In this document: positions 12,563 to 64,000 of the stretch, in pieces | Layout: every line of letters starts with the position of its first letter | How positions within the stretch are numbered: position 1 is the stretch's first letter | Source: Candidatus Saccharimonadota bacterium | Lineage (GTDB): Bacteria; Patescibacteriota; Saccharimonadia; Saccharimonadales; Saccharimonadaceae | DNA: 64,000 nucleotides | Reading direction: 5' to 3' | Assembly: GCA_017406775.1 (NCBI GenBank) | Contig: JAFQXV010000003.1 | Span: 62,001 to 126,000 of the forward strand | Translations under genes and position numbers: made by a program | Notes under the pieces: generated by a model | Told to the model about the DNA's origin: nothing | Database searches by the model: none | What the model saw: the letters and a program-made list of their open reading frames with translations, nothing else

Positions 12563-12639
12563 GGGCGGTTAGCTCAGTTGGCTAGAGCGCGTCTTTGACG
12601 TAGACGAGGTCAGAGGTTCGACTCCTCTATCGCCCACCA
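12563..12639 (+). tRNA. tRNA-Val(GAC)
   Basis: 77 nt with encoded CCA. Acceptor GGGCGGT/ATCGCCC, anticodon stem CGTCT/AGACG with loop TTGACGT, T-loop TTCGACT. TATAAT at 12549-12554 serves as promoter. A second copy of its last 20 nt lies at 12809-12828. Confidence 0.97.
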
Positions 12640-12640
12640 T

Positions 12641-12682
12641 AAGACAATAAAACAAACCCGAAAGGGTTTATTTTATTGTCTT
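12641..12682 (+). terminator. Long hairpin after tRNA-Val
   Basis: 19-bp stem from 12641-12659 to 12664-12682 with a GAAA loop and one bulged C. The stem is A/T-rich with CCC/GGG at the top. It lacks a clear T tail, so it could terminate or guide 3' processing. Confidence 0.6.
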
Positions 12683-12884
12683 ATATCGAGATGTATATAG
12701 AAGGCGAACCGTAGGTTCGATCGTGGTAGGAGATGAGCAAAATCTAAAACAAGTTTTAGATTTTTCGAATCGACGCCCCACGAATAGCTCGCGCTAAAGC
12801 GCGAGCTAACTCCTCTATTGCCCACCATTATTCCAGAACACTAAACCAACCCCAATAGGGGATTTTTTGTGTTATAATATTCTT
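12683..12884 (+). other. Non-coding spacer with hairpins and a tRNA-Val 3' remnant
   Basis: No ORF. In order it holds an 11-bp palindromic stem AAATCTAAAAC/GTTTTAGATTT (12740-12763), a perfect 9-bp stem AGCTCGCGC/GCGCGAGCT (12786-12807), then 20 nt matching the tRNA-Val 3' end with one mismatch (12809-12828), and finally the hisS promoter TATAAT at 12873-12878. The remnant suggests a former integration site or a degraded tRNA copy. Confidence 0.7.
12809..12828 (+). repeat. Duplicate of tRNA-Val 3' end
   Basis: ACTCCTCTATTGCCCACCAT repeats tRNA-Val 12621-12640 with a single C-to-T difference. The T-stem 3' strand, acceptor strand and CCA are copied, not the rest of the gene. Confidence 0.85.
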
Positions 12885-23818: not shown

Positions 23819-24991
23819 TTACTTTTTCCTTAAAATTAATATATCTCTCGCCACGACCTGATCTTCTCGATGGTAAAGAAGCCCCTCGCGCGATTTATTA
23901 TTAACATTATACCCCAAATCGGAAATTTGGTCAAGTAAATCTAATCTTTCGTATTCACCATCTTCGCGCAGCCAAGCCGGAATGGCAATTGTTACGGGCA
24001 TATTCTTCTTAATCTGCGTGCTTAAATTCTTCAAAAATCCCAAAATTATATTGCCGCACTCTTGCTTTTGCTCTTTTAGCTCCACTTCTGATGGAATTTT
24101 GGAAAACGGCTTGCCAAGATAACCCTCACACGCCACCGCATCAATCGATTGGCTCCATTTAAAAGAAGTGGCATCACCAATAGAAATCTGAAAATTATCC
24201 ACCTTCGGGCCGCGTCCGGCCGGCCCGTCGACCGAAGGTCGTCCGCGTCCCAAGGGGCGGTCGCCACGGGCGGCCGGCGCTCGTCCTCGCCTTGCCAGGC
24301 TCCGGATTCCCTCAGTTTGAATAATTTCAGATTTCATGAGCCATTCCAAATTCCTCTTTGAATATTCGATCATCCGCTCATTAATATCGGTACCGTATGC
24401 GCAGTATCCCATCAACAAAGCTTCCTGCAGAACTACGCCAGTCCCACAAAAAGGATCCAAAATCCTAGAGCCCTCAGGCAATATACCGCATAGATTAATC
24501 AAAATCTGCGCTAACTTTGGCGGTAACATTCCAACTTTAGCATCGCGTGCCGGACGGGCCTGATCTCGCCGCGCATAGGCATCAATATTCTGTACACCAA
24601 TTACGCGAAACCATGCGTCGTCAACCTTAATAAGTTCAACTTTTCGTCCATTTTTTCCAGATAATCCATTATGTAAAGAAGTAGCTGTGGATAGAACCGC
24701 TTCTTTGTTTTCTACTACGCGTACACTTCGGCCGTGTCGCACCAAAATCTTTTTTAGTTTTAGTGCTTCCATCGTAGCAGTCTTTCGCGAAGCTCGCCCA
24801 GAATAATCCGAAACCCCAAGCGTAATTTTTCCCTCCGGCAAACTCTGCAAGTATTCTAAAGGTTTTTGCTTCAGCTCCACCGCTAATTTTTGTGTGCCGC
24901 CCAATCTATCAATATCAGTACAAAACCCCGACAATTCCAACTCTGCTATCGAAATCTCTGGCTGTCTGCCTAAAACTGCTAAATATCTCAT
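23819..24991 (-). CDS. Trm11-like RNA guanine-N2 methyltransferase with palindromic-element insertion
   Basis: 390 residues. N-terminal THUMP-like region, then a Rossmann methyltransferase with ILDPFCGTGVVLQEALLMG and YGTDINERMIEYSKRNLEW. The expected DPPY-type motif is replaced by CEGYLGKP. About 40 residues of Arg/Gly/Pro-rich sequence (RSLARRGRAPAARGDRPLGR onward) interrupt the fold before the IGDATSF strand; these are encoded by palindromic element A (24183-24335). ATGA overlap with tyrS. Likely modifies tRNA. Confidence 0.82.
   Translation of the reverse strand: MRYLAVLGRQPEISIAELELSGFCTDIDRLGGTQKLAVELKQKPLEYLQSLPEGKITLGVSDYSGRASRKTATMEALKLKKILVRHGRSVRVVENKEAVLSTATSLHNGLSGKNGRKVELIKVDDAWFRVIGVQNIDAYARRDQARPARDAKVGMLPPKLAQILINLCGILPEGSRILDPFCGTGVVLQEALLMGYCAYGTDINERMIEYSKRNLEWLMKSEIIQTEGIRSLARRGRAPAARGDRPLGRGRPSVDGPAGRGPKVDNFQISIGDATSFKWSQSIDAVACEGYLGKPFSKIPSEVELKEQKQECGNIILGFLKNLSTQIKKNMPVTIAIPAWLREDGEYERLDLLDQISDLGYNVNNKSREGLLYHREDQVVARDILILRKK
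24183..24335. repeat. In-frame GC-rich palindromic element, copy A
   Basis: About 153 bp of very GC-rich DNA inside the Trm11-like gene. The outer inverted repeat is locus-specific: GAAATCTGAAAATTAT (24183-24198) against the complement of 24320-24335, with one bulge. The core is shared with copies B and C: a middle stem, a CGACCGAAGGTCG hairpin and a CCGC...GCGG hairpin. It is read as sense codons with no stop. Confidence 0.9.
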
Positions 24992-26806: not shown

Positions 26807-28951
26807 TTACTCGTAAACCGGTAAATCATCTGGAAACGGATCGAAATCCGAATCATCAAAATCATCAGCATCAAATTCCGCATTAAAATCGGTAAATCCA
26901 TCCCCATCCTCATCATGATAACCATTAGAGCCATATGGATTATACCCCAGCTCCAACAAAAACCTTGACGGCATATTATAACTTCTACTACCAAACGCGT
27001 ATCTAGAGGCCGCATAGGTCAAAAATAGTTTTTTCATCGCTCGCGTCATACCAACATAAGCCAACCGCCTTTCTTCCTCTAGAGAAGATTCGTCCTCTGC
27101 CCTGCCGCTCGGAAACAACCCATCTTCCATCCCCACCAAAAATACAACCGGAAATTCCAGCCCCTTTGCTGCATGCATCGTCATTAACGTCACCGAATTT
27201 TTACTAGTAGTCTCATCCGCCGAAGACATTAACGCTGCATCCGCCAAAAAATCTTCAAGATTTTCATAATTTTCCGCATTACCCACCAATACCTCTAAGT
27301 TACGCATTCTCTCTTCTGCACTTGGTGTACCGTCATTTGTTAAAGTTTTAAAATCAAAATATTCAATCGTCATCCTTACAGTCTCGGATGGATTAGCGGC
27401 TACATCTACTTTTTTTAAATAATTAATCAGTCTCAAAAATCCATTTCTAGCTTTTCCAGCTGACAATACATCTTCAATATCCGCATCAAGTAAAGGAGTC
27501 CTTGAATCAAGCACATTAATGGCTGCAATAACCTTCCTCAACGAAGCTTCACCTACGCCGCTCAAGATATTTTGCACCACCCTTGTCAAGCTTACCTGAT
27601 CACGCTGATTTATTGCCAATTTTAAAATCGCTAGCACGTCTTTTACTTCTTTACGATCATAAAATCTAACCCCGCCCACAATTTTGTATGGAATTTGATA
27701 ACTCATAAATGCTTTTTCAAAACTGTAAGACTGCGCATTAGTACGATAAAGAACCGCAAAATCTGAATAATCCTCATAGTTGCGTTTTAAAAGCATAATC
27801 TGACGTGCTACAAAATTGGCCTCATCGTCCTCATCTCGCAATGATTCAATATCGATTGGTTCACCCTTGCCTGCCTCCGTAAATAATTTTTTATCAGTTC
27901 TAATTTTGTTATGATCGATAATTTTTTGCGAAGCTTCCAAAATATTGCCAGTGGAACGATAGTTCTGCTCTAGTTTAATTACCTTTGCCCCAGGAAAATC
28001 TTTTTCAAAATTTAAAATATTTGTAAAATCTGCACCTCGCCAAGAATAAATCGACTGCCAATCATCACCCACTACACATATATTCTTTTTATCGTTCACT
28101 AAAAGTTTAACGATGTTGTATTGCACACTATTGGTATCTTGATATTCATCAATTAAAATATGTTCAAATCTTTTTTGCCATTTTTTTCGTACTTCTACAT
28201 TGTTCCTTAAAAGTTCCAATTCTTTTAATAACAAATCGTCAAAGTCTAGAGCTTGCGCCTTTGCTTTTTCTAGTTCATATTTTTCAAAAATTTTGGCAAT
28301 TTGCTTCTGGTTTGGATAAAATGCACTTGCGGCGTATTCTTCTGGGCCATTACCCTGATTTTTTTCGCTAGAAATAATGGAATGCACCGATTTAGGCTTT
28401 AAATTCTTATTGTCCGTTAGGCGCAAATCTTTCATCACGCGTCGAATTAAAGAGATTTGGTCATCCGCGTCGTAAATTGTAAAATTTCTATCTAATCCCG
28501 CCGCATCCGCTTCTTCCTTCAGCACCCTAACCGCAATTCCGTGAAAAGTCCCCATAAACGGCATAAAAGAACGTGGGGGAGTAGAATCCTGGGGGCTTAT
28601 ATCCCACTCGGGGGCGCGTCCGGCCGGCCCGTCGACCGAAGGTCGTCCGCGTCCCAAGGGGCGGTCGCCACGGGCGGCCGGCGCTAATTCTCGCCTTACC
28701 AGGTTCCGAACCCCCCTTCGTTGGGATATAAGCCCCCACAATCTCTCCCTCATCTCGTTTGCGGCCTTATTGGTAAACGTTACCGCAAGGATATGTGACG
28801 GCTGTACGCCATGTGCAATTAAATTAGCTATCCGATGGGTTAAAGTTTTTGTCTTACCACTGCCTGCTCCCGCCAAAATCAGAAGTGGCCCCTCTAAAGT
28901 ACTCACCGCTTCTTTTTGTCTGTCATTTAGCCCATCAAACAACGATTCCAT
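26807..28951 (-). CDS. pcrA: UvrD/PcrA-type superfamily 1 helicase with palindromic-element insertion
   Basis: 714 residues. Walker A LAGAGSGKTKTLTHR near residue 30, GTFHG, DEYQDTNSVQYNI, VGDDWQSIYSWRGAD, MTMHAAKGLEFPVVFL and YVGMTRA. It unwinds DNA in repair and replication restart. Residues ~75-120 (QRRGVRNLVRRELAPAARGD onward) are an insertion from palindromic element B between motif Ia and GTFHG. The C-terminal tail is very Asp-rich. TATACT lies 6 nt before the ATG: leaderless. Confidence 0.94.
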   Translation of the reverse strand: MESLFDGLNDRQKEAVSTLEGPLLILAGAGSGKTKTLTHRIANLIAHGVQPSHILAVTFTNKAANEMRERLWGLISQRRGVRNLVRRELAPAARGDRPLGRGRPSVDGPAGRAPEWDISPQDSTPPRSFMPFMGTFHGIAVRVLKEEADAAGLDRNFTIYDADDQISLIRRVMKDLRLTDNKNLKPKSVHSIISSEKNQGNGPEEYAASAFYPNQKQIAKIFEKYELEKAKAQALDFDDLLLKELELLRNNVEVRKKWQKRFEHILIDEYQDTNSVQYNIVKLLVNDKKNICVVGDDWQSIYSWRGADFTNILNFEKDFPGAKVIKLEQNYRSTGNILEASQKIIDHNKIRTDKKLFTEAGKGEPIDIESLRDEDDEANFVARQIMLLKRNYEDYSDFAVLYRTNAQSYSFEKAFMSYQIPYKIVGGVRFYDRKEVKDVLAILKLAINQRDQVSLTRVVQNILSGVGEASLRKVIAAINVLDSRTPLLDADIEDVLSAGKARNGFLRLINYLKKVDVAANPSETVRMTIEYFDFKTLTNDGTPSAEERMRNLEVLVGNAENYENLEDFLADAALMSSADETTSKNSVTLMTMHAAKGLEFPVVFLVGMEDGLFPSGRAEDESSLEEERRLAYVGMTRAMKKLFLTYAASRYAFGSRSYNMPSRFLLELGYNPYGSNGYHDEDGDGFTDFNAEFDADDFDDSDFDPFPDDLPVYE
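28590..28738. repeat. In-frame GC-rich palindromic element, copy B
   Basis: 149 bp bounded by a perfect 17-bp inverted repeat TGGGGGCTTATATCCCA (28590-28606) and its complement (28722-28738). Inside, GCG-CCGGCC-GCCCGT pairs with its mirror (two bulged bases), enclosing CGACC-GAA-GGTCG and CCGC...GCGG hairpins. Same orientation as copy A. Confidence 0.92.
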
Positions 28952-33585: not shown

Positions 33586-33660
33586 GGTCTCGTAGTATAA
33601 CGGTTAGTACAACGGGTTTTCATCCCGTCAACGCGGGTTCGACTCCCGCCGAGATCACCA
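33586..33660 (+). tRNA. tRNA-Glu(UUC)
   Basis: 75 nt with CCA. Acceptor GGTCTCG/CGAGATC, anticodon loop TTTTCAT, T-arm GCGGG/CCCGC. TATAAT at 33571-33576 is the promoter. Followed by a terminator and a duplicate of its last 20 nt at 33718-33737. Confidence 0.97.
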
Positions 33661-33668
33661 ATAGAAAG

Positions 33669-33691
33669 AAGACGCTTGCGTCTTGTTTTTT
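33669..33691 (+). terminator. Terminator after tRNA-Glu
   Basis: AAGACGC/GCGTCTT stem with tight loop, then GTTTTTT. Confidence 0.85.
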
Positions 33692-33717
33692 GGTGACGAG
33701 AAGGGAGGAACGAAGTT

Positions 33718-33737
33718 ACTCCCGCCGAGATCACCAA
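33718..33737 (+). repeat. Duplicate of tRNA-Glu 3' end
   Basis: ACTCCCGCCGAGATCACCAA is identical to 33642-33661, the T-stem 3' strand, acceptor strand and CCA of tRNA-Glu. It lies 57 nt after the gene end, between the tRNA terminator and the ligA terminator. Confidence 0.9.
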
Positions 33738-33760: not shown

Positions 33761-35902
<2,142 letters not shown>

Positions 35903-38293: not shown

Positions 38294-38370
38294 GCGAATG
38301 TAGCTCAGTTGTTTAGAGCGCTTCCTTGCCAAGGAAGAGGTCGAGAGTTAGAGTCTCTTCATTCGCACCA
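38294..38370 (+). tRNA. tRNA-Gly(GCC) with altered D/T-loop contact
   Basis: 77 nt with CCA. Acceptor GCGAATG/CATTCGC, anticodon stem CTTCC/GGAAG with loop TTGCCAA, T-stem GAGAG/CTCTT. The D-loop has G18-U19 in place of G18-G19, and the T-loop is TTAGAGT with A at position 56 in place of C. The two changes are complementary (U19-A56 replaces G19-C56). TATAAT at 38277-38282. Confidence 0.93.
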
Positions 38371-38630
38371 TTTTTTATGCTCCAATACAGACCCTCCATC
38401 ATTAACTCTCGGACTTACGTATCGAGAGTTAGAGTCTCTTACGTTCTGCACCATTTTTTATGCTCCAATACAGACCACTCCATCACTAACTCTCGGACTT
38501 ACGTATCGAGAGTTAGAGTCTCTTCATTCGCACCATTTTTTATGCTCCAATACAGACCCTCCATCACTAACTCTCGGACTTACGTATCGAGAGTTAGAGT
38601 CTCTTACGTTCTGCACCATTTTTTATGTCT
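38342..38630 (+). repeat. Tandem array of tRNA-Gly 3' halves
   Basis: The 18-nt T-arm CGAGAGTTAGAGTCTCTT occurs at 38342 (in the tRNA), 38423, 38507 and 38588, with spacings 81, 84 and 81. Each copy ends in an acceptor strand plus CACCA, then a T-run and a conserved linker. Acceptor ends alternate: CATTCGC (copies 0 and 2) and ACGTTCTG (copies 1 and 3), so a 165-bp two-unit block was duplicated. Each linker carries AACTCTCG, which can pair with CGAGAGTT of the next copy. Confidence 0.92.
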
Positions 38631-38650
38631 ATGCTATAATAACCATAAGC

Positions 38651-39622
38651 ATGGATATTTTTTCGCAAATAGTATTATTAGTGGTTGGCTTTGTACTGCT
38701 AATCAAGGGCGCCGATTGGCTTATAGAGGGATCCTCCTCTGTAGCATCGCATTTTAAAGTTTCCAAACAACTCATCGGGCTCACCATCGTAGCCATTGGT
38801 ACTGGCGCCCCAGAGCTAGCCGTCTCAATCTCTTCTCTCGCCAGCGGCAATACCGATCTACTTATCGGCAACGTTATGGGGAGCAATATCATCAATATCC
38901 TTTTACTAATTGGCGTAGCTGCCACAATTAAACCATTTCACATCCGTAAAACCACCATTGCCAAAGAACTCCCTCTTCTACTACTTATCTCTACGGCATT
39001 AGTTATTTTGTTTTTAGACACAAGCATTACCGGCGCCAGCACAAACGAAATCTCCCGCAGTGATGCACTTATTTGTATTCTCCTTTTTGCAATTTTCATT
39101 TATTATATCGTCCGTACCACTCGCAAAAACCGCAAAGCTAACAAAGAAGTCGCTAAACCAAAATTTAAACTCAGCAGTTCTTTTATCCTAGTAATCATCG
39201 GATTAATCGGTGTGGTAGCCGGCAGTCAATTAGTAGTTGACTCCGCCTCATTTATCGCTTCCGCAATCGGCATCTCGGATCGCGTTATCGCTCTTAGCGT
39301 AGTGGCTTTAGGTACATCACTGCCAGAATTGGTTACCACCATCACTGCCGCCAAACGCGGCGAGCATGATCTAATTATTGGAAATGTCGTGGGCAGTAAC
39401 ATCTTTAATATTTGCATAGTGCTCGGTCTACCAGTAATATTGTTTGGCACAATTTCACCAGAAAGCTTTGAGATCGTCGATATTGCCATGCTCATTGGCT
39501 CCGCCATCATTCTTTGGCTTGTTACCGCAACCCAAAACAAAATCACCCGCAAAGAAGGCATCCTTATGTTGGTTATTTTTGCGATATATTACGGCTATTT
39601 AATTTATGGAGCAATTGTATGA
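38651..39622 (+). CDS. Calcium/sodium antiporter, CaCA family (YrbG-like)
   Basis: 323 residues, about ten transmembrane helices in two inverted halves. The alpha repeats read GTGAPELAVSISS...GNVMGSNIIN and GTSLPELVTTITA...GNVVGSNIFN. It exchanges cations across the membrane. The frame stays open back through the tRNA-Gly repeats (unit lengths are multiples of 3), but ATG 38651, 10 nt after TGCTATAAT, is the credible start. ATGA overlap with the next gene. Confidence 0.93.
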   Translation: MDIFSQIVLLVVGFVLLIKGADWLIEGSSSVASHFKVSKQLIGLTIVAIGTGAPELAVSISSLASGNTDLLIGNVMGSNIINILLLIGVAATIKPFHIRKTTIAKELPLLLLISTALVILFLDTSITGASTNEISRSDALICILLFAIFIYYIVRTTRKNRKANKEVAKPKFKLSSSFILVIIGLIGVVAGSQLVVDSASFIASAIGISDRVIALSVVALGTSLPELVTTITAAKRGEHDLIIGNVVGSNIFNICIVLGLPVILFGTISPESFEIVDIAMLIGSAIILWLVTATQNKITRKEGILMLVIFAIYYGYLIYGAIV

Positions 39623-61779: not shown

Positions 61780-64000
61780 ATTCAAACATCAAAAATTTCA
61801 AGAAGACGCCGTCAAAGCTACTTGCGATGTCTTTACTGGCCAACCCAACATTAAGCATCAATTTCTAACCGACCAAGGCAACATTTCAAATACACTTCTA
61901 GCTCAAACCGAGCAAATCGGCTACGGCAATACCGAACTTTGCCTTCAAGATGCTCAACTTATCAAAAATCTTCATGAAATCCAAAGCGTTCAAAATATCC
62001 CCCAAAACAGCCAAATTGAGCGTCTCAATAATCGCCCAGTGTTTACTATTGAGATGGAAACTGGTACCGGCAAAACCTATACCTACATCAAAACCATGCA
62101 TGAGCTAAATAAGCAATACGGCTGGTGTAAATTTATTATTGTAGTCCCCAGCATTGCTATCCGTGAAGGAGTTTATAAAAGCTTTCAAACTACCGCCGAG
62201 CATTTTGCTGAAGACTACGGTGAAAAAATCAGATTCTTTATTTATAATTCTTCAAAACTAAATGAACTAGAGCAATTTGCCGACAGTCCCAACATCAACG
62301 CCATGATTATTAATACTCAAGCCTTTAATTCTCGTGGCGCCGAAAGCAAACGTATTCGCATGAAACTTGATTCCTTCCGTTCGCGCAAACCAATTGATGT
62401 TGTCGCCGCTACTAGACCAATTATTATCGTAGATGAACCACAAAGTGTGCTAGGTACCGATAAGAATTCCAACATCACTCGCGAAACCATCGCAGATTTC
62501 AATCCCCTTTTCTACCTCAACTATTCCGCTACACACCGTGAAGATTTCAATAAAGTTTATCGTCTAGATGCAGTCGACGCCTACCAAAGACAACTCGTTA
62601 AAAAAATCACCGTTAAAGGCATCACAATTAAAGGCGGCACAACCACTAACGGTTATCTATACCTTCAGAAGATCAACACTTATCCAAACCGTAAGCCGAC
62701 TGCCACTGTAGTGTTTGAATTCGATGCCAAAGATAAAGGCGGTATCCGCCGTAAAACCAAGACTCTCGTACTCGGTGATGATATTTATGTACATTCTGGA
62801 GAGTTGGAAGAGTATCGTAATGGTTATAAAATTTCAGAAATCAATGCTCGTGAAGAAGAGGGCTTTGTAGATTTTGTGAATGGCATTCGTATTCATGAAG
62901 GCGAAGTAATCGGCCAAACCAATGAAGACGATATTCGCCGAATCCAAATCCGCGAAACCATTATGTCGCACCTAGAAACAGAACGTCGTTTATTTAATAA
63001 AGGTATTAAAGTCCTCAGTCTATTCTTTATAGATGAAGTCGCAAAGTATAAATACTATGACGAAAACGGCGAAGAAAAAGGGCCGTACGCTAAAATTTTT
63101 GAAGAAGAATTCGCCAAAGCTGTGGATATTTATCTGAATCAACAACTACAATTTGAGGAAGAATCTACGTTTCGTAAGTATCTAGAAAAATTTACTCCAT
63201 CCGAAATCCACTCCGGATATTTCTCAATCGACAAGAAAACCAAACGCGCCGTTAATACCAAGGAGGGTGATTCTAAAGATAGTGTCCCTTATGAATTAAT
63301 TATGAAAGATAAGGAACGGTTACTGAGTTTTGAAGAACCAGTTCGTTTTATCTTCTCGCATTCCGCCTTGCGTGAAGGTTGGGACAATCCAAATGTATTC
63401 CAGATTTGTACACTACGCGAATCCGATGCCACCATTAAGAAGCGCCAAGAAATTGGTCGTGGACTTCGCTTATGTGTTGACCAAAACGGCATCAGACAAG
63501 ACGCTGAAACTCTTGGAGAAAACCTAGTCCACGACACCAACATTCTGACGGTCATCGCCAACGAAAGTTATGAAACTTTTGCCAGCAACCTACAAAGCGA
63601 ATTTGACGAGATTATCGCCAAACGTCCAAAAGACGCTTCTGCTTCCCTCTTCAATGGCAAAACCATCCGTGACGACAGCGGAATGAGGAGCCTAACCCTA
63701 GACGATATTAACGCCGCAGACATCTATACTGGTCTAGTCCTTGCTGGTCTCGTAGATAGAAATACTAAACAACTCACTGAAGCGTACCATTCATTAACCG
63801 ATGACCAAAAAGTCGAAGCTGTTCGTGAAGCCGTTGGCGACCTTTACGCACCATTCGCCATCAACATCCAAAACATCCTGGCAACTATTTATGATAAAAA
63901 TGCAGAAAAGATAATAACCAATGCTCGCCGTTCAGAAAAACTCAATCTGAACCAAGAAAAATATGCTTCTGCCAAGTTCCGCGAGCTTTGGGATCATATC
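61769..64000 (+). CDS. Type III restriction enzyme Res subunit (partial)
   Basis: 744 codons to the window edge; the C-terminal endonuclease domain is likely beyond it. Walker A METGTGKTYTY near residue 96, DEPQ box (IIIVDEPQSVLG) near 221, SATHRED, and helicase-C motif QEIGRGLRLCVD near 558. It translocates and cleaves DNA with Mod. Start ATG 61769 has GGAGG 5 nt upstream. Confidence 0.92.
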   Translation, partial: MKLRFKHQKFQEDAVKATCDVFTGQPNIKHQFLTDQGNISNTLLAQTEQIGYGNTELCLQDAQLIKNLHEIQSVQNIPQNSQIERLNNRPVFTIEMETGTGKTYTYIKTMHELNKQYGWCKFIIVVPSIAIREGVYKSFQTTAEHFAEDYGEKIRFFIYNSSKLNELEQFADSPNINAMIINTQAFNSRGAESKRIRMKLDSFRSRKPIDVVAATRPIIIVDEPQSVLGTDKNSNITRETIADFNPLFYLNYSATHREDFNKVYRLDAVDAYQRQLVKKITVKGITIKGGTTTNGYLYLQKINTYPNRKPTATVVFEFDAKDKGGIRRKTKTLVLGDDIYVHSGELEEYRNGYKISEINAREEEGFVDFVNGIRIHEGEVIGQTNEDDIRRIQIRETIMSHLETERRLFNKGIKVLSLFFIDEVAKYKYYDENGEEKGPYAKIFEEEFAKAVDIYLNQQLQFEEESTFRKYLEKFTPSEIHSGYFSIDKKTKRAVNTKEGDSKDSVPYELIMKDKERLLSFEEPVRFIFSHSALREGWDNPNVFQICTLRESDATIKKRQEIGRGLRLCVDQNGIRQDAETLGENLVHDTNILTVIANESYETFASNLQSEFDEIIAKRPKDASASLFNGKTIRDDSGMRSLTLDDINAADIYTGLVLAGLVDRNTKQLTEAYHSLTDDQKVEAVREAVGDLYAPFAINIQNILATIYDKNAEKIITNARRSEKLNLNQEKYASAKFRELWDHI

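Follow-up and report, generated by a model that had tools for sequence, protein, structure and literature searches.

In Escherichia coli, the tRNA-Tyr1 gene tyrT is followed by about three 178-bp repeats, each of which carries a tRNA 3' end, and the RtT RNA is represented in Rfam. We here describe an array of three repeat units behind the gene for tRNA-Gly(GCC) in a stretch of 64,000 nucleotides (the window), which spans positions 62,001 to 126,000 of the forward strand of contig JAFQXV010000003.1 (assembly GCA_017406775.1) from a Candidatus Saccharimonadota bacterium, together with similar units in the genome of this host (G000) and its relatives. The array is similar to tyrT in that tandem repeats directly follow a tRNA gene and each hold the 3' end of that tRNA, whereas tyrT is a single locus with longer repeats, and the units described here follow many tRNA genes, measure 60–85 bp, contain tailored hairpins, and share modules in trans. 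As many as about half of the tRNA genes in one clade of gut Saccharibacteria have behind them one to three hairpin units, each ending in an exact copy of the tRNA's own 3' end (the echo).

Other known systems are also similar in part. Attachment-site duplications likewise repeat a tRNA 3' end up to CCA, whereas the present units have no intervening element, several repeat lengths, and hairpins tailored to each tRNA. Minihelices of tRNA are minimal substrates of RNase P, and, like these and viral or other tRNA-like structures, the units with echoes of 18–20 nt appear to combine an acceptor stem, a T-arm-like hairpin, and a CCA end. In contrast to all of these, the units are chromosomal, occur one or more per tRNA gene, and are cognate to the neighboring tRNA, and most of those with an echo starting at C56 lack the 5' strand of the acceptor. 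Repetitive extragenic palindromic (REP)/RAYT sequences, miniature inverted-repeat transposable elements, and bacterial palindromic repeats are also short hairpin modules with many copies per genome, whereas the present units are found only after tRNA genes, have target-specific ends, and have no dispersed copies at unrelated loci in G000. In Rfam, no family but tRNA reached its gathering score, RtT included, with only sub-threshold matches otherwise. A limited literature search found no description of a genome-wide set of tRNA-tailored repeats, and, within that search, such a system is undescribed so far.

The gene for tRNA-Gly(GCC), with an encoded CCA, was identified by ARAGORN and Rfam RF00005 at 38294–38370 on the forward strand, which also carries all the features of the array. 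It is the sole gene of this kind in the genome, and T19 and A56 replace the near-universal G19-C56 tertiary pair, which is a compensated change. The part from C48 to A76 (38342–38370) is the source copy, and, as the original prediction had stated, three extra copies of this 3' end, running from CGAGAGTTAGAGTCTCTT at C48 to CCA, start at 38423, 38507, and 38588, with a spacing of 81, 84, and 81 counted from 38342. Unit 1 (38402–38453) consists of a left arm (38402–38411), a loop (38412–38422), and a right arm with the echo (38423–38453), as seen in the sequence, the repeats, and the fold. Unit 2 (38486–38535) has the left arm at 38486–38495, the loop at 38496–38506, and the echo at 38507–38535, and unit 3 (38567–38618) has them at 38567–38576, 38577–38587, and 38588–38618, respectively. 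The echo of unit 2 is exactly that of tRNA-Gly(GCC) (CATTCGC-ACCA), and units 1 and 3 have the end variant ACGTTCTGC-ACCA, so that the ends alternate from the gene onward as CATTCGC, ACGTTCTGC, CATTCGC, and ACGTTCTGC. The double unit of 165 bp was also borne out, with a block of 122 nt repeated at 165 bp at an identity of 99%, and a single Tandem Repeats Finder array (38341–38627) spans the repeats. A T6 run follows every CCA of the array: linker 1 (38371–38401) has this run and then ATGCTCCAATACAGACCCTCCATCA, linkers 2 (38454–38485) and 3 (38536–38566) each have one, and another lies behind unit 3. Each linker ends in YTAACTCTCG, the complement of the next CGAGAGTTAR, in agreement with the proposed pairing of linkers with the next T-arm, and a hairpin with an 11-nt loop between the arms is predicted with z scores of −3.0 and −3.9. 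The array is far beyond chance.

The alternate end had been noted to look like the 3' half of another tRNA, which was not supported, with none of the 47 tRNAs of the genome having the acceptor GCAGAAC/GTTCTGC. The ACGTTCTGC end reads as a variant of the unit and not as another tRNA, because an ending in GCGTTCTGC recurs at the same place in three relatives (G006, G357, and G282). An assembly artefact was considered and rejected; the pattern is seen in many independent metagenome-assembled genomes, inside contigs, and at different tRNAs. An open frame (38309–39622) runs from tRNA-Gly across all of the array and into the gene for a cation exchanger that lies downstream. It stays open across the array since 165 is divisible by 3, and it is probably a coincidence; the exchanger gene starts at a separate ATG (38651) and has a TATAAT-like box.

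The original prediction treated glycine only, and a scan of every tRNA in G000, a genome of 720 kb with 47 tRNAs that was reassembled except for 2 kb, shows the same architecture at many tRNA genes, namely behind Trp, Ile, Tyr, Gln, Ser, Met, Arg, Asp, Glu, Ala, Gly(TCC), and Val. The 3'-terminal 24 nt of each tRNA were scored against its own 300 nt downstream. A score of at least 20 was reached by 24 of the 47 tRNAs, of which 4 (three Pro and His) did so owing to neighboring tRNAs; the corresponding rates were 2.8% when the regions behind other tRNAs were used and 3/47 for the upstream regions. Exact 18-nt copies of tRNA 3' ends outside tRNA genes numbered 21, at 16/47 tRNAs, and all of them share the strand of their own tRNA and lie 43–148 nt downstream of it, with none elsewhere in G000. 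Hairpin cores found by pattern were likewise all (13/13) located 28–118 nt downstream of tRNAs. The window holds two further cases on the forward strand. The second (33586–33737) consists of tRNA-Glu(TTC) (33586–33660), a hairpin, and a unit ending in the exact 3' end of this tRNA (ACTCCCGCCGAGATCACCA), and the third (12563–12828) consists of tRNA-Val(GAC) (12563–12639) and a structured RNA ending in a near-copy of its 3' end with 1 mismatch in 18. A preference for a TTCGA T-loop was strong in G000 (15/27 vs 1/16, p = 0.001) and absent in another genome of the clade (G007), and hence it is not general.

A conserved structured element was also observed behind all three tRNA-Ala genes (CGC at L043, TGC at L022, and GGC at L210), in the order TAGGAGCNGA, a hairpin, GANGCGACGCC...TGTGGAAGA, and a hairpin. 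ACCA ends two of its three copies, a similar motif follows tRNA-Val(GAC) at 12640–12828 of the window, and no Rfam match was found for this Ala/Val element.

Collected across species, 89 distinct units represent 32 anticodon types. A typical unit starts with a hairpin that in many cases directly adjoins the CCA of the tRNA. A second hairpin follows, the right arm of which repeats the sequence of that tRNA from C48, C56, or about A58 and continues along the 3' strand to CCA. With these three preferred starts, the echoes are 18–19 nt (21 units), 21–22 nt (32 units), or 29–32 nt (27 units) long, and they start at a median of 53 nt past the preceding CCA, with 34–180 nt between repeats. In units with an echo starting at C56 or C48, the left arm, which ends in CG, is complementary to the start of the echo. 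Left arms fit their own right arms, with 5.6 of 8 pairs formed compared with 3.81 after permutation (standard deviation, 0.25), and the fold energies of 33 units were below those of shuffled-upstream controls, with a mean z of −2.8. The class with echoes of 18–20 nt has 4.67 of 7 acceptor nucleotides paired compared with 3.74 (p = 0.0075), in agreement with acceptor-plus-T-arm minihelices, an effect that is absent when all units are pooled and appears only in this class after splitting; in the class with echoes of 21–24 nt, no acceptor pairing above the control was found. Unrelated tRNAs, and also different species, have loop modules such as TTCTTCGAAT in common, whereas stem and tail match the local tRNA, and linker modules, for example, TTTTTGTTTCACAAAAACATCAAAAAG or GCTCCA...TTTTTTTGTTGGC, also recur at different tRNAs and in different species.

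With respect to the spread of the units, echoes of the own 3' end were found at 10/31 tRNAs in G007 and at 15/35 tRNAs in G347, where there were none upstream, so that the excess over the control extends to three genomes (G000, G007, and G347). No such excess was found in G034 of the same genus (2/35 tRNAs) or in G101 of another genus (2/32). The loop core CGTTCTNCGAATCGA was present in 23 sampled genomes, every one of which belongs to this genus, and was lacking from all sampled genomes of 155 other genera of the order. Of its fetched occurrences, 30/33 lie 27–214 nt after a recognized tRNA, at 13 or more isoacceptors, and most of these matches are accompanied by an exact 21-nt or 29-nt echo of that tRNA. 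A tree of LigA from 30 genomes places all 15 carriers in a single clade, with 6 label changes compared with 10.3 expected (P = 0.0065), and LigA of this clade is about 77–83% identical to that of G000. One tRNA may bear different modules in different species, and one module is found at different tRNAs.

The tRNA-Gly(GCC) locus was compared among relatives in a sample of 121 loci enriched for positives, of which at least 30 had units behind the tRNA. The T-arm sequence CGAGAGTTAGAGTCTCTT was exact in 151/174 genomes of the genus searched, and, by our count, 22/174 had two or more exact copies close together on one contig. The copies of the Gly unit range from 0 to 3 and their spacing from 63 to 129, decayed remnants of units occur at some loci, and the acceptor strand mostly matches the host tRNA (CATTCGC or CGCTCGC). 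The loops vary with a small apical stem kept (GGC-TTC-GCC, ACC-TTC-GGT, TTC-TAC-GAA, CTC-TGC-GAG, TAC-TTC-GTA, and TTT-TTC-AAA), as judged by eye, with the stem shifted by the loop length; RNAalifold on the Gly alignment gave no covariation in the arms, which are invariant. In two species (L074 and L079), the Gly units are nearly full-length and tRNA-like, with the D region rebuilt and a hairpin of the GTCCCC-GAA-GGGGAC type in place of the anticodon arm. The suggestion of collapsed tRNA genes is supported in part, namely, for some units elsewhere that are near full-length and tRNA-like (G421 and G022) or are acceptor-plus-T-arm minihelices.

The units had also been suggested to be a pile-up of integration scars, and we considered attR-like scars of site-specific integration into tRNA 3' ends by a tyrosine integrase or by a casposase-like enzyme that duplicates its target. 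The echoes do cover the tRNA 3' end and stop at CCA as attachment sites do, and large elements are present at tRNA-Gly(GCC) in only two relatives, in which large insertions at this gene (L094, L101, L106, and L107 of G312, and L068 and L069 of G409) have contig breaks at the repeat. The duplicated block at these insertions starts in the anticodon arm, however, and they represent ordinary tRNA-targeted integration that is distinct from the units. In the 89 units, the 34–180 nt between repeats are free of genes and of any element, the variable echo lengths and the starts at C48, C56, and A58 do not correspond to a fixed target duplication, and the stems are tailored to each tRNA. No viral contig carried the Gly hairpin or the element, and the 55 viral matches to the loop core had no tRNA-type context. 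Integration scars are quite improbable as the origin of the units.

We consider that the units may constitute a propagating family of tRNA-tailored hairpins and minihelices, copied between tRNA genes at microhomologies of CCA and TCG and probably retained as tRNA-mimicking 3' extensions, and we give this reading a probability of roughly 0.45. Modules would spread in trans between tRNA loci by template switching or gene conversion, which would best explain the boundaries of the units at CCA and TCG, the modules that they have in common, and their fit to the local tRNA. A copying strand would depart from the recipient tRNA at CCA, copy a module present at a different tRNA locus, and rejoin the recipient at the TCG common to T-arms, by which the 3' end of the recipient would be written twice; the repeats might afterwards expand, contract, and homogenize locally. 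In the pre-tRNA transcript, the unit would be a tRNA-mimicking hairpin or minihelix with a CCA end and could act on the processing of tRNA 3' ends or bind enzymes that handle them, an RNA function that we infer from the sequences. With slightly less confidence, it may be suggested that a genome-wide system that writes such units behind tRNA genes is still active and that the cognate mimics are co-transcribed, as a new tRNA-linked element or non-coding RNA.

The copying could conceivably have proceeded through RNA instead, by retro-copying of tRNA 3' ends with a reverse transcriptase and snap-back of the cDNA. The echoes do start near modified positions of the T-loop and variable loop and end in CCA, and the left arm is self-complementary. 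RVT_1 genes, however, do not separate the species with and without Gly units, and none is present in G347, G391, G226, or G205, all of which have hairpin cores, so that retro-copying is highly unlikely. G000 has three reverse transcriptase genes (L310:10234–11367, L317:5276–6544, and L333:9770–10966), the best match of which is the general reverse transcriptase model of PADLOC. Among the matches listed for G000, the single one named Cas1 is a reverse transcriptase, and no candidate enzyme stands out in bulk, non-exhaustive family scans.

With respect to transcription, units sit inside tRNA operons, as in Tyr-unit-unit-Thr of G000, where Thr starts 7 nt past the last unit, and in Lys-unit-Val and His-unit-Gly of G007, and, hence, these units must be transcribed. 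For this reason, the units may yield the decoy 3' tRNA halves of the original prediction. The units might alternatively be back-up intrinsic terminators, in which the acceptor region and T-run were duplicated and the arms restored. A T-run lies behind the last unit in 16/39 cases compared with 16/74 tRNAs without units, and many linkers contain terminator-like hairpins. Terminators are nonetheless unlikely; in T-arm units, the T-run lies 10–25 nt away from the hairpin, operon-internal units do not terminate, and an exact copy of each tRNA 3' end is not required for termination.

The main rival to the propagating family of tRNA mimics is a mutational or selfish process at the DNA level, without function, which is less probable, if still quite conceivable. 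Palindromes adjacent to tRNA genes would stall replication, template switching would copy the hairpins from one tRNA locus to another, quasi-palindrome correction would match the arms, and slippage would keep the 3' ends identical to the tRNA. Such a process fits the fast turnover with decay and 0–3 copies, the tandem periods of 60–84 bp, and the fact that each T-arm hairpin is a DNA palindrome as well, and there is no excess of G-U on the transcribed strand. It fits less well with the separate acceptor pairing of the minihelix architecture and with the persistence of the trait through a clade of the LigA divergence given above. For Arg-CCG, pairing derived by hand indicated that, between G000 and G347, the first hairpin has four complementary pairs changed on both sides and one mismatch repaired, and the minihelix has identical stems with a fully changed 5-nt loop; that loops diverge while stems remain paired is also a point against the DNA process. 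The Leu-TAA element (L048 and L488) is 84–88 nt long, ends in CGCACCA, and is conserved in G000 and G347, with three two-sided stem changes and one matched insertion between them. The compensatory changes in Arg-CCG and Leu-TAA are compatible with RNA structure and also with DNA palindrome correction.

Several observations weigh against tRNA mimicry by a propagating family. Single stem mismatches were G-U in 14 cases and A-C in 14 cases, which does not favor RNA over DNA, and units starting at C56 form no acceptor stem. The quick gain and loss of units, with decay in some species, indicates that they are not essential, and the T5 run found in the linker in 27/39 cases suggests that some units are perhaps reached only by read-through. 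Template switching itself is a deduction from the boundaries and the sharing of modules.

Genes for tRNA are among the most conserved parts of genomes, yet in this clade the sequence behind them is repeatedly rewritten, with the ends of the genes themselves as the source. Provided that the RNAs are made and used, ultra-small bacteria with about 47 tRNAs would have a hitherto unrecognized layer of tRNA biology. Otherwise, the units would document, in a clean natural form, how template switching has occurred between tRNA loci, and they would represent a new way in which repeats spread. In annotation, care is needed not to take the units for tRNA pseudogenes, CRISPR-like arrays, or integration scars.

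Some other features of the genome were also observed. The ligA gene contains an in-frame insertion of about 100 bp that is GC-rich and folds strongly (window 35270–35416, minus strand), and complete or partial copies of this segment are present at about ten sites of the genome, including 28615–28710 and 24204–24317 of the window, resembling a palindromic element carried inside genes. No transfer-messenger RNA was reported in G000 by ARAGORN, the only program used for it, with 2 kb of the genome missing. Proteins of the FemAB family use aminoacyl-tRNA for peptidoglycan bridges, and four of them are encoded in this 720-kb genome.
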